Assembly (NCBI GenBank): GCA_002067745.1
Contig: MVRU01000003.1
Span: 1 to 64,000, forward strand
Direction of reading: 5' to 3'
From: Syntrophus sp. PtaU1.Bin005
Lineage (GTDB): Bacteria > Desulfobacterota > Syntrophia > Syntrophales > Syntrophaceae
Length of the DNA: 64,000 nucleotides
The position numbers and the translations under genes were made by a program. The notes under the pieces were generated by a model, which ran no database searches, had not been told where the DNA came from, and worked only from the letters and a program-made list of their open reading frames with translations. Shown here in pieces: positions 7,116 through 64,000 of the stretch (the stretch's first letter is position 1; every line of letters begins with the position of its first letter).

Positions 7116-7224
7116 TGCTGTAGAGCATCTTTTAAAATCAGGCGGGCGACGGTCTAGCTAACCGGACCCCATACAAATTAAGGGCAATTACGGTGCCGTA
7201 ATCATCGTGGTTTGCCCTTTTTTT
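7116..7224 (+). promoter_or_regulatory. Structured leader with terminator before the capsid gene
   Basis: AGGGCAA (7181-7187) pairs with TTGCCCT around 7212-7218 and is followed by seven T. Inside it TTACGG/CCGTAA forms a second perfect hairpin with a 2-nt loop. Upstream, 7150-7170 holds further short complementary words (GGTC/GACC). The result is a full terminator between TerL and the capsid gene, about 37 bp before the capsid start. It may be read through or attenuated to set capsid expression, or it may simply end the packaging transcript. Confidence 0.6.
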
Positions 7225-7260
7225 GTGCCTGAAATCAAAAGCAACAAGGAGTCAAACGGA

Positions 7261-8970
7261 ATGGAGAAACGAAACTTTGAAATTGATGTTGGAAGCATCA
7301 GAGCGGAATCACGGACCGTATCGGCAAGTCTATCGAGTGAATTTCCAGTGCAGCGTTATGACGGCGAGGAAATCTTGAGCCACAAGCCGGGGGCCGTGGA
7401 CCTGAGCAGGGCACCCCTTCCCCTTCTGAGGGCACACGACAACAGCAGCTTGCCCGTGGGCGTCGTTGAAAAGTTGGCAGTAGAGGGCGCCAAGTTGCGG
7501 GGCACCATCAGGCTATCAGCGAACCAGGACGCTTTATGGACTGATATCACGGACGGGATTCTCCGCAATCTGTCAATCGGGTACCAGATTTTAGAGAAGC
7601 AGAAAACGAAACGCGGAATTATTGCAACGAAATGGATGCCTTACGAGGTGTCCCTTGTTGCAGCACCGGCGGATAACACTGTCGGAATTAATCGGGGCAT
7701 TTCCCCACAAGGAGAAAAGAAAAAAATGGATAGGAATGACATTTTGAAGGCAAAAAAAGCGGCAATCGATGAAATGGCTGAACTGGCAAAGAGCGGCGAG
7801 AATGCCGAACGTCTGGCCGAACTCAAGGGCGAAATCCGGGCCTTTGATGCACGGCTTGAGGCATTCGAGATGGCCGAGTCCGGAAGGAAGGATGTGAAAG
7901 GCTTTACCCCTGAGGTAAAGAAAACTGACCGTTCGATCATCGAGTTTACCGGCGGATCCGCGACGAATCGGACCTTTGCCGGAATGTTCAACCAGGGGCG
8001 GGCTCTCGAAGTGAATGAAGAAGCAATCCGAGCTTTCAGGGCGTCGATGGTGGAAGGCGTGCCCTCATCGGGCGGGCTGTCCGTGCCGGAACCCTTGGCG
8101 GCTAAGTGGTTGGATGACTCCATCGAGAGCGAAATCATTCGACCCCGGGCGACCGTGTGGCCGATGGAATCCGCGACGCGCAAAGTGCCGGGTTGGGATG
8201 CAAACACGCAGACCGGCGGAAGCATGTTCGGCGGGTTTGCAATGGAATTTCTGGCCGAAGAAGGCACGGGAAACAAGCAGACCGGAAAACTTCGCTGCAT
8301 CGAACTTGCAGCCAAAAAGGGCGCAATTTTTGTTGATGCCAGCAATGAGCTCGTTGAAGATGGCCTGGGCTTTGATGCGCAGCTTGACAGGGCCATGAGA
8401 TCTTCCATCGGATACGGCCTTGACAAATATTTCATCTCCGGGACTGGTGCCGGGCAGCCTTTGGGGATTAGAAACGATCCGGCAAAGGTCCAAGTTGCGA
8501 AGGAAACCGGGCAGATGGCTGATTCGGTGGTATGGGAAAACGTCGCGAAAATGTATGCCCGTATGTACCCCGCAGGGCAGCGTCGGGCCGTGTGGATTTG
8601 CAACAACAACGCCATTGTGCAGCTTTTGACCCTCTCTATGTCAATCGGTACAGGCGGCGAGGTAATACCCGTCATGAACGAGGAATCCGGGCAGTTTAAG
8701 ATCCTGGGACGCCCTGTTATTTTCACGAGTCACATGCCGACCGTTGGCGATGCCGATGACATAATGTTTTGTGACCTTAGTCAATACGCTATCGGAATGC
8801 GGCGCGAACTTCGGCTTGAAAAGAGCAATATTCCCGGTTGGACGTCCGATTTGATGAGCTACCGGGCACTGCTCCGCTTCGACGGAATGGGCACCTGGAA
8901 TGCTCCTATCACTCCGGAAAATGGTGATACCTTGTCATGGTGCGTCGGGTTAGCAGAAAGAGCGGCCTAA
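7261..8970 (+). CDS. HK97-type prohead protease fused to major capsid protein
   Basis: 569 aa from ATG 7261, with AAGGAG upstream. Residues 1-145 are a prohead protease: LLRAHD with H59, and RNLSIGY with S105 as likely catalytic residues, then YEVSLVAAPAD. Residues 156-215 are a helical delta/scaffold-like segment, and about 225-569 are an HK97-fold major capsid protein (PF05065). A second start, ATG 7726 (residue 156), has AAGGAG 11 bases upstream, so free capsid protein could also be made by internal initiation. Such fusions are known in HK97-type phages. It would build the satellite's own capsid. Confidence 0.92.
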   Translation: MEKRNFEIDVGSIRAESRTVSASLSSEFPVQRYDGEEILSHKPGAVDLSRAPLPLLRAHDNSSLPVGVVEKLAVEGAKLRGTIRLSANQDALWTDITDGILRNLSIGYQILEKQKTKRGIIATKWMPYEVSLVAAPADNTVGINRGISPQGEKKKMDRNDILKAKKAAIDEMAELAKSGENAERLAELKGEIRAFDARLEAFEMAESGRKDVKGFTPEVKKTDRSIIEFTGGSATNRTFAGMFNQGRALEVNEEAIRAFRASMVEGVPSSGGLSVPEPLAAKWLDDSIESEIIRPRATVWPMESATRKVPGWDANTQTGGSMFGGFAMEFLAEEGTGNKQTGKLRCIELAAKKGAIFVDASNELVEDGLGFDAQLDRAMRSSIGYGLDKYFISGTGAGQPLGIRNDPAKVQVAKETGQMADSVVWENVAKMYARMYPAGQRRAVWICNNNAIVQLLTLSMSIGTGGEVIPVMNEESGQFKILGRPVIFTSHMPTVGDADDIMFCDLSQYAIGMRRELRLEKSNIPGWTSDLMSYRALLRFDGMGTWNAPITPENGDTLSWCVGLAERAA

Positions 8971-28998: not shown

Positions 28999-29196
28999 AT
29001 GTCTAGAATTTGTGACGTTTGTGGCAAAGGGCCCGTCGTTGGAAACAATGTCAGCCACGCGAACAATAAAACGAAAAAAGTATGGTACCCGAATCTTCAG
29101 AAGATCCGGTGCATAGACAGCAAGACGGGCACTGTCAAGAGGGTGAAGGTCTGTACCCGTTGCCTGCGTTCCGGATTTGTGAAGAAGGCCTTATAA
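28999..29196 (+). CDS. rpmB: 50S ribosomal protein L28
   Basis: 65 aa, basic. The [19 protein letters not shown] start has a zinc-type CxxC, matched by CTRCL near the end, as in the zinc form of bL28. It ends in the same few bases as the convergent gene at 29191. Confidence 0.97.
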
Positions 29197-29976
29197 AAAG
29201 CAGGGGATACTTGAATTTTTTATTGCGCAAAGGGTAGGGCTCAGAAACGCGTCAAAATCGTCAACCAGGCGCATCGCCTGAAGCAGAAGCGCCCTGGTTC
29301 CTTCCCAAGCGGCATCGTTATCGCGATCCAGGCCGAACCGGTCGATATAAAAGCCGATTCGGCCTTCAATATCCTTGAGGCTCTTGATTCTTTCCAAGGT
29401 GCCTGAACTCAATCCTTTCTCAAGTGCCTGCCGAATCACCGCCGCTTCCACACCAAAAAACCAGTCAAGGGTTTCGCAGAGCTCATCCATTTTTTTGTCT
29501 ACCGTATGATCGACCGCCTCACTGAACAATTCGTATAACCTCACCTCCCCCGCTTCCTGTACAAGCCGCAGATCAAAGGTCAGTTCAATGATGGTGTGGG
29601 CTCGATAAGCGGCCGTCCTGCGATCGACGTCCATTCCCATCCTCTGCTGAAATTCCAGAATCGGCTCTATCAGCGATTGGCCGCGCCGGTAGGCATACCC
29701 CTGGGAGTTTGGATTAAAACCGCAGACAGGATCGGTATGAATCTGACCATGGTGGGCCATGTCATCCACCAGGAGATGAAAAAGCACATAGGCGGCCTTC
29801 TGATGTTGCGGGGGGTAGAAAAAACGCCGTGGAATTCCATGGGTAAATTCAGCGGTAATGCCCTTTTGGATCGGCAGCAGATCCGGACAGACATTATAAA
29901 CGTAGAGATCCAGAGACTCTCGGAAATTCGAACCGAGAAACTCTTTAAGGATCCAGGTATGAGTCATCATGAACAT
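29191..29976 (-). CDS. Unknown histidine-rich protein, possibly phospholipase C-like
   Basis: 261 aa, starting at the ATG 29976 with AGAGG eight bases upstream; two in-frame ATGs follow at once. The start [12 protein letters not shown] and [14 protein letters not shown] near residue 66 place several His and Asp in helices, which recalls zinc-dependent phospholipase C/S1-P1-type folds. This is only a resemblance; I cannot assign a family. No signal peptide. It probably ends the pyc operon, 64 nt after the DUF4911 gene. Confidence 0.5.
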
Positions 29977-30040: not shown

Positions 30041-30259
30041 TCAGTTCCCTGGAAGCAATGGCTCATGAAATTCAATTTCTGTTTTCAGCCGGCAAAGGAT
30101 CTCCGAGACCGTGTCTTCAAAACCCGGCATCGCCGAGATTTGAAGCAGTGCAATCCGCGGATCTATCGTAGAGACGGAGCAGACGCCTTCATACCCTTCA
30201 AGCAGAAATTGAAGACAGGCGATATCCCGTCTGTTTATACGGAGGATGATTCTCTTGAT
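30041..30259 (-). CDS. DUF4911-like protein with a non-canonical start
   Basis: 72 aa. The frame reads IKRIILRINRRDI, then LLEGYEGVCSVSTIDPR, IALLQISAMPGFEDTVSEIL, and ends EPLLPGN. This matches the pattern I know for DUF4911 (LEGYEGL..V.TxDPR). The frame is closed by a TGA just upstream, and no ATG, GTG or TTG lies between. The best start is ATC at 30259, preceded by AAGGA and AAGG. It begins 4 nt after the carboxyltransferase stop, so coupling is likely. A frameshift or sequence error near the start is the alternative. Function unknown. Confidence 0.55.
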   Translation of the reverse strand: MKRIILRINRRDIACLQFLLEGYEGVCSVSTIDPRIALLQISAMPGFEDTVSEILCRLKTEIEFHEPLLPGN

Positions 30260-30263
30260 CGCC

Positions 30264-32204
30264 TTATTCCTTCTTGATCATGAGCAGGGGAGTGCCAACC
30301 TCGACCTTGTCTCCCGGCCCGACAAAGATTTCTGACACCTGGCCGTTCAGGTCGGAAACGACATTGTTCAGCATCTTCATCGCCTCCAGGATGACGAGAA
30401 TTTGCCCCGTGGAAACTTCATCTCCTTCCGAGACGGGAATTTCATTCACAGTCCCCGTAATGTGCGAACGAATATCACCGGACAAGGCCAAGGCGTCAAT
30501 CTCCTTCGGAGTCAACTGCAATTTTCTTTCCTTCGCCGTGCCCTCGATTTCCATTTCCGTCAAAATGGGTTGCGAATGGTGATCGATGAGCATATAGGTC
30601 ACGGCATCGCCCGTTTTGGTCTTCCGCTGTGTCCCGATTTCGATGATGTGCAGTTTTCCGAAGACATCGAGGATTTCAAACTTTTCTCCCAGGTTGAAGC
30701 CGCCCTTTTTAAACCAGATCCGGGGCGGCAGGACCCAGGTTTTTCCAAATTTTGCTTCAAACTTGAAAAAATCCACCGCATCGTTGGGATGCTGCAGATA
30801 AAGGACCAGTTCATCCTCCGAAGCTTCGCGCCCCAGGCGATGCTCCAGCACTTTTTTCTCAACGCCCAGATCGATATCGTCCACTTTTTGAATTCCGTAT
30901 TCCTCATCCACCATCCGTTTCCAATCCGGCCCGAAAACGGACTCGTAGATGTCATCGGAGGGCCGATAGAAGGGAAACTCTCCATAGCGCCCCAGCATGA
31001 GATTTTTCAGATCGTCCGTAGCGTCCTTATAGCGCTTCCCTTTCAGGACATTGTTTGCCGCGGTCGTCCAGAGGATCTGGGAACCGGGCGTAACGCTCCA
31101 CCAGTTTCCCAGTTCGACGTGCACCCGCGGCAGTTCCGTCTGAAGAATTTCCGGCATACGATGCAGAAAACCGCCTTTCAGGGCCTGTTCGAAGCTTGAT
31201 CCGGTGGCCCCGCCGGGAAGTTTGTGAGTCTGGACGGTTGGGTCAAAGCCGAGAAACTGCGATTCAAAATCGCGATAGTATTCCCTCTCAGGCCGGAGTT
31301 TATTGGAAGTCTCTATCACAGCCTGACGATCGAGCCCCGCTGCGTGGTATCCCAGGTCATCCAGGATGTCGATCACGGAAAGGAGTGGCGGCGGGCCGTA
31401 AAAACCGGTGAAGGCGTGATCTCCGGCATTCACGATTTTCGCCCCGTTCTGAACGGCTTCCACAATCCGTCCGATATCCGCCCCATCGGTGTTGTGGCCG
31501 TGGTAATGGACAATAAGCTCCGGATGGGCATTCAATATGGCCTTTACCAGCCTTCCGATGCGCCTCGGGGTTCCCAGGCCCCCGTGGTTCTTGATTCCCA
31601 GCAAAATTTCCGGGCCGGTCACCTCAAGAATTTCGCCTACCTTCTTCACATAGAAGTCATCGGTATGCTCCGGACCCGTGGAAAAGCAGATGGCCGGTTC
31701 CAGGAGGCATCCCGCCTTTTGGACCTCTTCGAAGATGGGCACCATGTTCGGAACGAAATTCAGGAAGTCAAAAACCCGCCATACATGGACATATCGGGCA
31801 AAGGACCGAACCGTCAAGCGGATCACATTCTCCGGGTATGGTCTGTAGCCAAAAAGGTTGATTCCCCGGCAAAGGGTCTGAAAAAGCGTATCGGGCATGT
31901 TTGCGCTCAACACTTCCAGTTTCTCAAGGGGATTCATCTGCTTGCGCAGCATATCCACATGAATGGAAGCCCCTCCGGTGATCTCGATGGAAAAATAGCC
32001 CGCGTCGTTTCTTTCCTTGGCCACAAGAAGCTGGGTGTGGGGCATGACCCGGTTCTTGAAATCGGACTGGGAAAGATCCCGTTCGGTGTTGGTTAGGTAG
32101 TAGCCGGCAGTCCGCCGGATCTTCTCAAGGACAAAGGACACCCCCCTTTCCTTCAGATCTCTCGGCGATATTCTCTCTTCAAGCAGTTTTTCGGGTATCT
32201 TCAT
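30264..32204 (-). CDS. pycB: Pyruvate carboxylase subunit B type (carboxyltransferase plus biotin carrier)
   Basis: 646 aa. The N-terminal barrel (about 25-300) has GYFSIEITGGASIHVDML, GIKNHGGLGTPR and HYHGHNTDGAD; a conserved carboxyltransferase C-terminal region with LPGGATGSS follows. The biotinyl domain closes the protein with LEAMKMLN, the lysine being biotinylated. With the biotin carboxylase upstream it forms a two-subunit pyruvate carboxylase, or possibly an oxaloacetate decarboxylase or related enzyme. No membrane subunits are present, which favours carboxylation. Confidence 0.88.
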   Translation of the reverse strand: MKIPEKLLEERISPRDLKERGVSFVLEKIRRTAGYYLTNTERDLSQSDFKNRVMPHTQLLVAKERNDAGYFSIEITGGASIHVDMLRKQMNPLEKLEVLSANMPDTLFQTLCRGINLFGYRPYPENVIRLTVRSFARYVHVWRVFDFLNFVPNMVPIFEEVQKAGCLLEPAICFSTGPEHTDDFYVKKVGEILEVTGPEILLGIKNHGGLGTPRRIGRLVKAILNAHPELIVHYHGHNTDGADIGRIVEAVQNGAKIVNAGDHAFTGFYGPPPLLSVIDILDDLGYHAAGLDRQAVIETSNKLRPEREYYRDFESQFLGFDPTVQTHKLPGGATGSSFEQALKGGFLHRMPEILQTELPRVHVELGNWWSVTPGSQILWTTAANNVLKGKRYKDATDDLKNLMLGRYGEFPFYRPSDDIYESVFGPDWKRMVDEEYGIQKVDDIDLGVEKKVLEHRLGREASEDELVLYLQHPNDAVDFFKFEAKFGKTWVLPPRIWFKKGGFNLGEKFEILDVFGKLHIIEIGTQRKTKTGDAVTYMLIDHHSQPILTEMEIEGTAKERKLQLTPKEIDALALSGDIRSHITGTVNEIPVSEGDEVSTGQILVILEAMKMLNNVVSDLNGQVSEIFVGPGDKVEVGTPLLMIKKE

Positions 32205-32219: not shown

Positions 32220-33680
32220 TCAATAAGCATACGGATTGATCTTCTTTGCGTGCGTCTCCGCGATCAACCTGGATAGTTTTGCAATCTCCCGCTCACCTTC
32301 CGGATAATTGAAGATCTCTGGATGGGTTTCGAGGTAGCCGGTATCGAAAGTTCCCGCCAGGAAATCCGGTTCGTCACAAATCGCCATATAGAACGGGATC
32401 GTACTTTTCGGGCCAACGATGAGAAATCCCTGAAGGGCCCTTTTCAACCGCTGGATTGTCTGCTCCCAGTTAAACCCCCGGATGGTCATCTTCACCATCA
32501 GCGAATCGTACTCCGTGGGAATTTTATAACCCTGGTAAACCAGACCATCCAGGCGGACTCCCGGCCCGCCGGGAGACTGGTAAACTTCGAGGCGCTTGCC
32601 GCCTTCCGGGAGAAAATTGTTTTTCGGATCTTCCGCATTGATCCGGACCTGAACGGCTTTGCCCAGCAGATGAATCCTTTCCATGGGGATCCTCAGGTGT
32701 TCCCCTTCGGCAATTCTGATCTGTTCGCGGACTATGTCCACCCCTGTCAGTTCCTCCGTGACGGTATGTTCCACCTGGAGCCGGGTGTTCATCTCCATAA
32801 ACCAGAATTCATTGGTCTTTGAATCCACGAGAAATTCCACGGTTCCGGCATTTACATAACCCGCCACACGGGCCGCTTCAATGGCGGCCTGGTACATGGC
32901 GTTCATGACCTCCGCAGGCAGGTCGGCAGGGGCAATTTCCAGGAGTTTCTGATGGCGCCGCTGAATGGAACAGTCCCGGGATCCCAGGTGGATAATATGG
33001 CCGTATTGATCGGCCAGAATCTGTATTTCGATATGCCGCGGCGCTTCGATGCATTTTTCAACATAGACGCTTTCATCGCCGAAGGCGGAAAGGGCCTCGG
33101 CCCGAGCCAGGGGAAGCTGAACCTCAAGATCCGCCTCTCCCGTCACCTTTCGTATGCCCCGGCCGCCTCCACCTGAAGAAGCCTTCAGCATGACGGGGTA
33201 GCCATATTTTCGCCCGAAGGCAATGGCCTCGCGAAGTCCGGCATCACCGCGGTACAGATCCTTCGTTCCCGGTATAAAGGGAATATTGGCCTTCTGCATG
33301 ATGTCCCGGGCGATAACTTTATTGCCAAGACTCCGGATGACATCCGGCGGCGGGCCAATGAACACAATTCCGGCCCGTTCGCATTCCGCAGAAAATTCGG
33401 GAATTTCCGATAAAAATCCGTAACCTGGATGAATGGCATCGGAACCGCTTTTCCGGGCCGCCCAGAGAATTTTTTCGATATCCAGATAATCCTTTCGGGG
33501 ACCATCACCGATCATGATGGCATCGTCCGCCAGTCGGATGTAATAAGCTTCACTGTCCTGTTTCTCGTAGATCACGACGCTATCCATGGAAAGCTCCTTC
33601 ACGGTGCGCAGGATGCGCAGCGCGATCTCGCCCCTGTTGGCGATGAGAACCTTCCGGATCTTTTTCTTCTGGTTACCCAT
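32220..33680 (-). CDS. pycA: Biotin carboxylase subunit (pyruvate carboxylase subunit A type)
   Basis: 486 aa ATP-grasp biotin carboxylase. Motifs: KVLIANRGEIALRILRT, GYGFLSEIPEFSAEC, the glycine-rich SSGGGGRGIRKV and EMNTRLQVEHTVTE. It carboxylates the biotin of the carrier domain in the next gene with ATP and bicarbonate. It is the first gene of the operon; 15 bp separate it from pycB. AccC of acetyl-CoA carboxylase is the alternative, but the partner gene argues for pyruvate. Confidence 0.9.
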   Translation of the reverse strand: MGNQKKKIRKVLIANRGEIALRILRTVKELSMDSVVIYEKQDSEAYYIRLADDAIMIGDGPRKDYLDIEKILWAARKSGSDAIHPGYGFLSEIPEFSAECERAGIVFIGPPPDVIRSLGNKVIARDIMQKANIPFIPGTKDLYRGDAGLREAIAFGRKYGYPVMLKASSGGGGRGIRKVTGEADLEVQLPLARAEALSAFGDESVYVEKCIEAPRHIEIQILADQYGHIIHLGSRDCSIQRRHQKLLEIAPADLPAEVMNAMYQAAIEAARVAGYVNAGTVEFLVDSKTNEFWFMEMNTRLQVEHTVTEELTGVDIVREQIRIAEGEHLRIPMERIHLLGKAVQVRINAEDPKNNFLPEGGKRLEVYQSPGGPGVRLDGLVYQGYKIPTEYDSLMVKMTIRGFNWEQTIQRLKRALQGFLIVGPKSTIPFYMAICDEPDFLAGTFDTGYLETHPEIFNYPEGEREIAKLSRLIAETHAKKINPYAY

Positions 33681-62621: not shown

Positions 62622-64000
62622 AGATAATCGATCTGACAAAGGATTATTTCCGCAGTTTGTCCCGGGAACTGGCGGCGAAGATACCGGACATGCCGGCGCT
62701 GGCCAAAAACGTAAAGTTCCAGCGGATGGCCGTCCTCGTGATCGTCGCCGTCATTCTTTCCTTTCTGATTACACCGGAATTCTACATCAGCCATCCGCAG
62801 TTCAAGATCGGCTCCATCGCTCCCAAGGACATTAAAGCGGACAAGGATTTGCTCGTTGAAGACAGGGCCTCTACCGAGCAGAAGAAGCGGGAAAGCATCC
62901 AGGGCACGAAATCCGTTTACGACTATGACAATGCCCTGGCGGAACATCTTGTGTCATCTGTTTCCTCAGCTTTTTCCAAAATGCGGATTTTTCTGAAGGA
63001 TCCAGCAAACGAGGGCCTGACCGGACTCCCCTCACCTTTCAGCAATAAGGCCTTCCACGGGGCCATTAACCAATTTCAGCAAAGCCTTGGAATCAAGCTC
63101 TCCGAACAGGAGTTGAGAATTCTCCTTCAGGAAAATTTTTCCGAGAGCCTCGAAGAGAAGATCGTACAGCTTCTTCGTGCCGTCTATATCAATCGATATT
63201 TTGTCAATACCAGATTGCTGGCCCAGGACATGTCCCTGGGAATCACACTTCGAAACGTCCGGACCCAACAGGAACAGAACCTGGCCGACTTGTCAGATCT
63301 TCTTTCTCTGGAAAATGCCTACGATCTTTTGATTCAAGAGGCCGGGGCTCTTCTGCAGGGTCAGAAAAAAGAGGTCCGACAGACGGTTCTTTCCTTCACC
63401 AAGAGGCTGATCCAGCCGAATGTGACGTTCAACCGAAATGCGACGGAGAAAAAGAAGGCGGAAACCCTGGATACCGTCAAACCCGTCTTTTTCCTTGTTC
63501 AGAAAAATGAAATGATCGTCCGTGAGGGCCAGAAAATTTCCGAACTCGACAAGGAAAAGCTGGATGCATTCTACAGCAGAAAGGGACAGGAATCCCTTGC
63601 AGATTTTTCTGTTTTGCTTGGGATTTTCTTGACCATTGTCATTCTCTCTCTCGTTCTTTACTTCTGGCGCACAAGGAACTGGCCCAAGAGGCAGGAGCGA
63701 AGCATCGTCAACAGCCTATTTCTGTCCACGATCTCTGTTTTTTCAATCCTTATGGTCAAGGCGGGAATTTTTATTTCCGATGCCGTCAACCGGGCATTCC
63801 CCACTCTTTCCACCGAGGCCTTCCTCTATGCCATCCCCTTTGCTGCAGGGGCCATGCTCGTCGCCGTGTTGACCAATCGGAATCTGGCTCTCGTGTTGAC
63901 CATTTTCCTCTCGTTTCTCGTTTCCTTCCTGTTTGACTATGACATCAAAATGAGCCTCTTTTGCTTTCTGGGAAGCGTCGCCGCCTCGTACCATGTTGTA
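62618..64000 (+). CDS. 7TM-HD phosphodiesterase (PgpH/YqfF type), partial
   Basis: 461 codons up to the window end; the frame continues past it. The ATG overlaps the phoH stop. One membrane helix (about 36-53) is followed by the extracellular 7TMR-HDED domain (about 60-320) and the first helices of the 7TM region (from about 335). The HD domain that hydrolyses cyclic di-AMP would lie beyond the end. Context (phoH before it) supports the call. Confidence 0.88.
   Translation, partial: MKIIDLTKDYFRSLSRELAAKIPDMPALAKNVKFQRMAVLVIVAVILSFLITPEFYISHPQFKIGSIAPKDIKADKDLLVEDRASTEQKKRESIQGTKSVYDYDNALAEHLVSSVSSAFSKMRIFLKDPANEGLTGLPSPFSNKAFHGAINQFQQSLGIKLSEQELRILLQENFSESLEEKIVQLLRAVYINRYFVNTRLLAQDMSLGITLRNVRTQQEQNLADLSDLLSLENAYDLLIQEAGALLQGQKKEVRQTVLSFTKRLIQPNVTFNRNATEKKKAETLDTVKPVFFLVQKNEMIVREGQKISELDKEKLDAFYSRKGQESLADFSVLLGIFLTIVILSLVLYFWRTRNWPKRQERSIVNSLFLSTISVFSILMVKAGIFISDAVNRAFPTLSTEAFLYAIPFAAGAMLVAVLTNRNLALVLTIFLSFLVSFLFDYDIKMSLFCFLGSVAASYHVV

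Follow-up and report, generated by a model that had tools for sequence, protein, structure and literature searches.

From which codon is a conserved gene translated, if its reading frame holds no ATG, GTG or TTG ahead of the domain that it encodes? This question is raised by a short gene of the DUF4911 family in Syntrophus sp. PtaU1.Bin005, located in a window of 64,000 nucleotides (contig MVRU01000003.1, positions 1 to 64,000, assembly GCA_002067745.1), which is the whole stretch of DNA analysed here. A preliminary description of this DNA, made from its letters, had proposed an ATC codon as the start and termination-reinitiation behind an upstream carboxyltransferase gene as the route to it. 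In the following we describe the gene and its start region, compare them with relatives in the genus, order and phylum, and outline a mechanism of initiation, a possible origin of the unusual start and a tentative function. An AUC start is strongly supported by the comparison of sequences, and we hold it to be very probably real.

The DUF4911 frame and its start region

The gene is encoded on the minus strand, a detail absent from the preliminary description. That account had otherwise named a DUF4911-type frame, a TGA closing it upstream, ATC as the well-placed start in the absence of ATG, GTG or TTG, two AAGG-type sites before this codon and a distance of 4 nt from the carboxyltransferase stop, and on all of these points the analysis bears it out. 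From stop to stop the frame spans 30277..30041 and encodes ...AIKRIILRINRRDIACLQFLLEGYEGV...; upstream it is closed by an in-frame TGA, read from the sequence at 30280..30278. The proposed gene, which would extend from the AUC start through a TGA stop (30041..30259) and encode 72 residues, is supported by its Pfam match, by dN/dS and by an AlphaFold model. Its product matches PF16256 (DUF4911) over the entire profile (1-57 of 57, E 2.2e-17) and passes the gathering cut-off with 63.3 bits versus 29.3.

In this frame, no ATG, GTG or TTG precedes the domain or occurs among the first 43 codons counted from the ATC; the first canonical start is the ATG at residue 44 (the M of MPGFED), which lies in the middle of the domain. 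The proposed start codon ATC occupies 30257..30259, and two more ATC codons follow at +3 and +4 codons. Upstream, the carboxyltransferase gene ends with TAA (30266..30264), and four nucleotides (GGCG) separate this stop from the ATC. A Shine-Dalgarno (SD)-like AAGGA is found 8 nt before the ATC (30268..30272), within the last carboxyltransferase codons. The second AAGG-type site, TAAGG (30262..30266), overlaps the carboxyltransferase stop and ends 2 nt before the ATC, probably too near to serve as the main SD. Nothing unusual was seen in the folding of the RNA around the start (z 0.18 and 0.81).

Selection and fold

The DUF4911 frame is intact at all four Syntrophus loci compared, i.e., in the genome of the window (G000) and in three further members of the genus (G001, G002 and G003). 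Over 62 codons counted from the ATC, G000 and its nearest relative G002 differ with dN 0.25 and dS 1.12 (dN/dS 0.22), and across the six genus pairs dN/dS ranges from 0.16 to 0.39, with bootstrap upper bounds for pN/pS of 0.47-0.81. The gene is under purifying selection in Syntrophus. A decaying copy, which has gone untranslated in these species since it lost its start following a rearrangement, would fit the observation that the loss of ATG goes with a changed neighbourhood; yet the frame preserved in 4/4 loci, the dN/dS values and the retention of most family-core residues all speak against decay, and we regard it as improbable.

The AlphaFold model, built with 12 sequences, has a pLDDT of 89.6 and adopts a ferredoxin-like beta-alpha-beta-beta-alpha fold that is complete from the ATC. 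Its first strand comprises residues 2-8 counted from this codon, and therefore, starts at the later ATC codons would cut the strand. Foldseek returned no match to the model at E 0.001 or better. The best VIA-align match reached Z 8.7 over 59 residues and was followed by many unrelated rows with nearly as high scores (Z 6.5 to 8.1), so that it indicates only a common fold. Sequence searches yielded nothing convincing among solved structures (best E 0.25), no NCBIfam family and no relative in viral contigs. When contigs were scanned with the single protein, no relative was confirmed; 11 loci emerged when the genus alignment served as the query.

Start codons in related genomes

The preliminary description had advised a look at the starts of close relatives, and it is this comparison that speaks for the AUC start. 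In G002 an ATC occupies the homologous column, likewise 4 nt after the carboxyltransferase stop and behind the same AAGGA site, and the neighbouring codons differ from those of G000. G003 carries ATT in this column, 59 nt from the carboxyltransferase stop and 5 nt behind an SD of the sequence AGGAG, and in G001, where the gap to the carboxyltransferase amounts to 85 nt, an ATGATG is found, the second ATG of which lies one codon upstream of the ATC column. A codon of the AUH type (AUA, AUC or AUU) is thus kept at the homologous position in three of four genus members, the fourth having ATG one codon upstream. These data also bear on the prospect, raised in the preliminary description, that a sequencing or assembly error hides a normal ATG. 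While the source genome of 2.9 Mb is an assembly of 165 contigs, separate genomes agree, since the same ATC stands in a different sequence context in G002 and an ATT in G003; an error is therefore scarcely credible.

Of the 155 genomes of the order, 83 yielded a DUF4911 match, and one locus was read per genome. The start was sought in a generous span of -12..+4 codons round the query start (ATC column = +1), in which a canonical ATG, GTG or TTG codon was counted whether or not it was the true start. Such a codon is present at 80 of the 83 loci, and ATG falls exactly in the ATC column at 40 of them. The three loci without a canonical start near the domain all belong to Syntrophus (G000, G002 and G003). 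An ATH triplet alone is no proof of a start, since at 12 of the 80 other order loci an ordinary isoleucine (ATT, ATC or ATA) falls in this column. Canonical codons at or before the domain start are lacking in G000 and G002, while G003 has an in-frame TTG with a weak SD 18 codons upstream of its ATT. G002 harbours a TTG 7 codons past its ATC, inside the first strand, and G000 is the only one of the three without any canonical codon around the domain start.

The phylum outside the order was sampled with 70 loci, comprising the 30 best-scoring and 40 chosen from the matches listed (190 genomes matched), 8 of the latter being selected for long open frames. A canonical codon was found within -12..+3 codons at 68 of these loci, and within -20..+3 codons at all of them. 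Syntrophus shares the domain with its relatives elsewhere but differs from them in this respect, given that a canonical start lies near the domain at 80/83 order loci and 70/70 sampled phylum loci.

Shine-Dalgarno sites

At all three loci the AUH codon is preceded, at a usable distance, by a 5-base SD match (AAGGA at 8 nt, AAGGA at 8 nt and AGGAG at 5 nt). By comparison, 12 of 80 canonical order loci show such a match, even when scored at their best candidate, as do 600 of the 10622 ATH trinucleotides (5.6%) on the same strand of the 83 loci. The corresponding Fisher value of 0.005 overstates the enrichment, since the three AUH loci are related and hence do not represent independent trials. 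In G000 and G002 the SD overlaps carboxyltransferase codons and may exist partly for the sake of that protein's sequence.

Genomic neighbourhood and possible origin of the AUH start

The gene upstream of DUF4911 (30264..32204, minus strand) encodes a pyruvate carboxylase subunit B/OadA-like carboxyltransferase with a biotinyl domain (Pfam PYC_OADA and Biotin_lipoyl). In NCBIfam, models of pyruvate carboxylase score best, but all 25 matches listed stay below their cut-offs (e.g., 297 versus 402 bits). Further upstream on the same strand follows a biotin carboxylase subunit (32220..33680), assigned by Pfam and likewise matched below cut-off by NCBIfam, and downstream of DUF4911 lies a gene for a conserved 261-residue protein (29191..29976, minus strand) that has no Pfam or NCBIfam match. 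Relatives of the latter gene are found near DUF4911 at 3 of 4 genus loci and at least 55 of 79 other order loci. The carboxyltransferase adjoins DUF4911 upstream at all four genus loci but was found at none of the 79 other order loci; conversely, recJ is present in the flanks of at least 51 of these 79 loci, and was found at none of the four genus loci. At least 27 of the 79 loci feature the sequence of a small secreted protein, and at two of them recJ, the small secreted protein and the downstream gene are all absent from the fetched flanks. Since these flanks are short, the neighbour counts are lower bounds.

The AUH state would have arisen in the Syntrophus lineage, where DUF4911 lies behind a biotin-dependent carboxylase operon and not near recJ. 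A rearrangement that placed the gene behind this operon, combined with the loss of its own leader, would have left initiation to what was at hand, and we infer that the relocation of DUF4911 caused the change of start.

In other families, a recurring TTGATCTTT motif was noticed by eye approximately 30-60 nt before DUF4911 (e.g., in L014, L036, L101 and L110). The motif is often followed by something like ATGTTAC, and by eye none was seen in the four Syntrophus leaders; perhaps it is a promoter that was lost in this genus.

The gene arrangement also invites the view that ribosomes undergo a programmed change of frame as they reach the end of the carboxyltransferase gene and make a fusion protein, in which DUF4911 would have no separate start. 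The DUF4911 frame is indeed open across the carboxyltransferase stop at all four genus loci. According to the coordinates, however, the frames of the two genes are offset by +1 in G000, G001 and G002 but by +2 in G003, which renders a fusion unlikely; in addition, no slippery site was recognised by eye, and relatives outside the genus possess DUF4911 as a free-standing gene with a canonical start. Taken together, we consider a frameshift most improbable.

A proposed mechanism of initiation at AUC

We infer from the sequence comparison that DUF4911 translation would begin with the ordinary initiator tRNA reading the AUC (30259..30257) despite a mismatch at the third base, guided by the AAGGA SD in the last carboxyltransferase codons. 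A start of this kind would belong to the infC/pcnB class of weak AUH starts, and from membership in this class it follows that DUF4911 expression should be low and fall as the initiation factor IF3 rises. By analogy with the cases in Escherichia coli, Streptomyces and Staphylococcus aureus described in two reports (PMC5472188, PMC13009471), the DUF4911 start is probably weak and IF3-sensitive.

Ribosomes terminating at the upstream gene may contribute to initiation. In G000 and G002 the start lies 4 nt behind the carboxyltransferase stop, and consequently terminating ribosomes could feed it, whereas the AUU of G003, 59 nt downstream and equipped with its own SD, would initiate independently. 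A stricter proposal is that DUF4911 translation depends on termination-reinitiation, such that ribosomes ending at the carboxyltransferase TAA start at the AUC 4 nt further on for no other reason than that they already occupy the message. The spacing in G000 and G002 suits this proposal, as do results with E. coli reporters, in which re-initiation weakens with growing distance and under IF3 overexpression and is strengthened by an SD (PMC2268962). The gaps of 59 nt in G003 and 85 nt in G001 suggest, however, that tight coupling is not needed for DUF4911 as such. Hence, the suggestion of termination-reinitiation in the preliminary description stands as a possibility for G000 and G002, but is unlikely to be a conserved requirement. 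We regard a dependence on re-initiation as conceivable, if tentative; it would in any case complement the AUC start and not take its place.

infC and other AUH starts

The preliminary description had called AUC starts very rare, which is valid in general but does not extend to infC of this order. The start of infC was inspected in all four Syntrophus genomes and at the 30 best-scoring order loci (146 of 154 genomes matched). At all 34 loci (L117-L120 and L132-L161) the apparent start after a GGAGG is ATA (25 loci) or ATC (9 loci), and none of them has an in-frame canonical codon in the 11 codons upstream. Many infC loci feature an in-frame TGA within or beside the SD and are thereby left without a canonical option, while the infC of G001 has an ATG 12 codons upstream and that of G002 TTG codons further up. 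Judging by these sequences, AUA/AUC initiation of infC appears to be well established in the order, and the Syntrophus DUF4911 gene looks like a second AUH-start gene after infC. In Myxococcus, infC (dsg) also starts with AUC. Hecht in 2017 reportedly measured all 64 codons as starts.

Similar to infC, DUF4911 in Syntrophus combines an AUH start with an SD, and the start is kept among relatives. The two genes differ in that infC has a full GGAGG SD and is autoregulated in E. coli, whereas DUF4911 has a 5-base SD match and is not a translation factor. Furthermore, the apparent AUH start of infC is found at all 34 order loci read, while that of DUF4911 is confined to one genus.

Other genes provide additional points of comparison. 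In both E. coli and Streptomyces, IF3 represses start codons of this kind, and the GTC start of Streptomyces sigR is under IF3 control (PMC5472188). Like DUF4911, sigR is a gene other than infC with a non-canonical start that is conserved within its group; unlike DUF4911, it uses GTC and not ATC, and its repression by IF3 has been demonstrated (PMC5472188). In S. aureus, ccpN (AUA), cvfC1 (AUU) and citZ (AUA) are expressed at approximately 10% of the AUG level in poor medium, and ccpN reaches up to 30% in rich medium (PMC13009471). Conserved AUH starts with strong SD matches in genes other than infC link ccpN and cvfC1 to DUF4911; yet their starts were mapped by ribosome profiling and reporters, that of DUF4911 by comparison alone (PMC13009471 for the S. 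aureus genes). Finally, E. coli pcnB is a chromosomal gene other than infC, whose AUU start limits expression (Binns and Masters 2002, as cited in PMC13009471); it belongs to another phylum, and in place of its AUU two Syntrophus species have AUC in DUF4911 and a third has AUU.

Seen in this context, the AUC of DUF4911 looks like an exception to the start-codon rules, real though precedented. It matters for annotation and as a case of weak-start control, and not as a new mechanism. Gene finders restricted to ATG, GTG and TTG would miss or truncate DUF4911 in at least two species, and a cheap search rule is to look for conserved frames with ATH in a column where relatives carry ATG. To the short list of AUH starts outside infC (pcnB, ccpN, cvfC1 and citZ in the cited reports) DUF4911 adds a comparative and evolutionarily placed case. 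It also suggests how such starts may originate: a rearrangement strips a gene of its leader, and the gene persists by means of a weak start served by a borrowed SD.

A possible function of DUF4911

In three genomes of the phylum (L192, L194 and L195) DUF4911 and a MiaB-like protein are joined in one open frame, with DUF4911 first (L192, 2119-3747; L194 and L195 on the minus strand). Counting these three, 21 of the 70 phylum loci have miaB-like sequence within the flanks retrieved, as detected by one tblastn query, which may also match other methylthiotransferases. With the same query, no miaB-like neighbour was found at the order loci. In all four genus genomes miaB scores above the cut-off, and in G000 it is located on another contig. 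Among the papers searched, none mentions DUF4911 and none joins three of the terms MiaB, DUF4911, methylthiotransferase and Desulfobacterota. That DUF4911 is an accessory protein of MiaB is a reasonable guess, and no more.

A farther-reaching idea casts DUF4911 as a second IF3-gated Syntrophus gene, the product of which would be a MiaB-linked accessory of tRNA modification. The AUC or AUU start would make its dose depend on free IF3, and in two species the dose would also follow the translation of the preceding pyruvate-carboxylase-like gene. Initiation fidelity, anaplerotic carboxylation and tRNA modification would thus be coupled. We consider this idea rather unlikely.

Other late starts in the window

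A crude scan of codon usage yielded 68 coding-like segments in the window, some of which are surely antisense shadows. Eleven segments were flagged for a late start, DUF4911 among them, and four others (7177, 42927, 55387 and 63293..63664) were inspected. Those at 7177 and 55387 have a natural-looking ATG nearby, and 63293..63664 on the minus strand may be the shadow of a frame left incomplete by the edge of the window. By eye, 7177..8970 on the plus strand resembles a phage capsid protein that includes a protease portion, and the left end of the window may therefore be a prophage.
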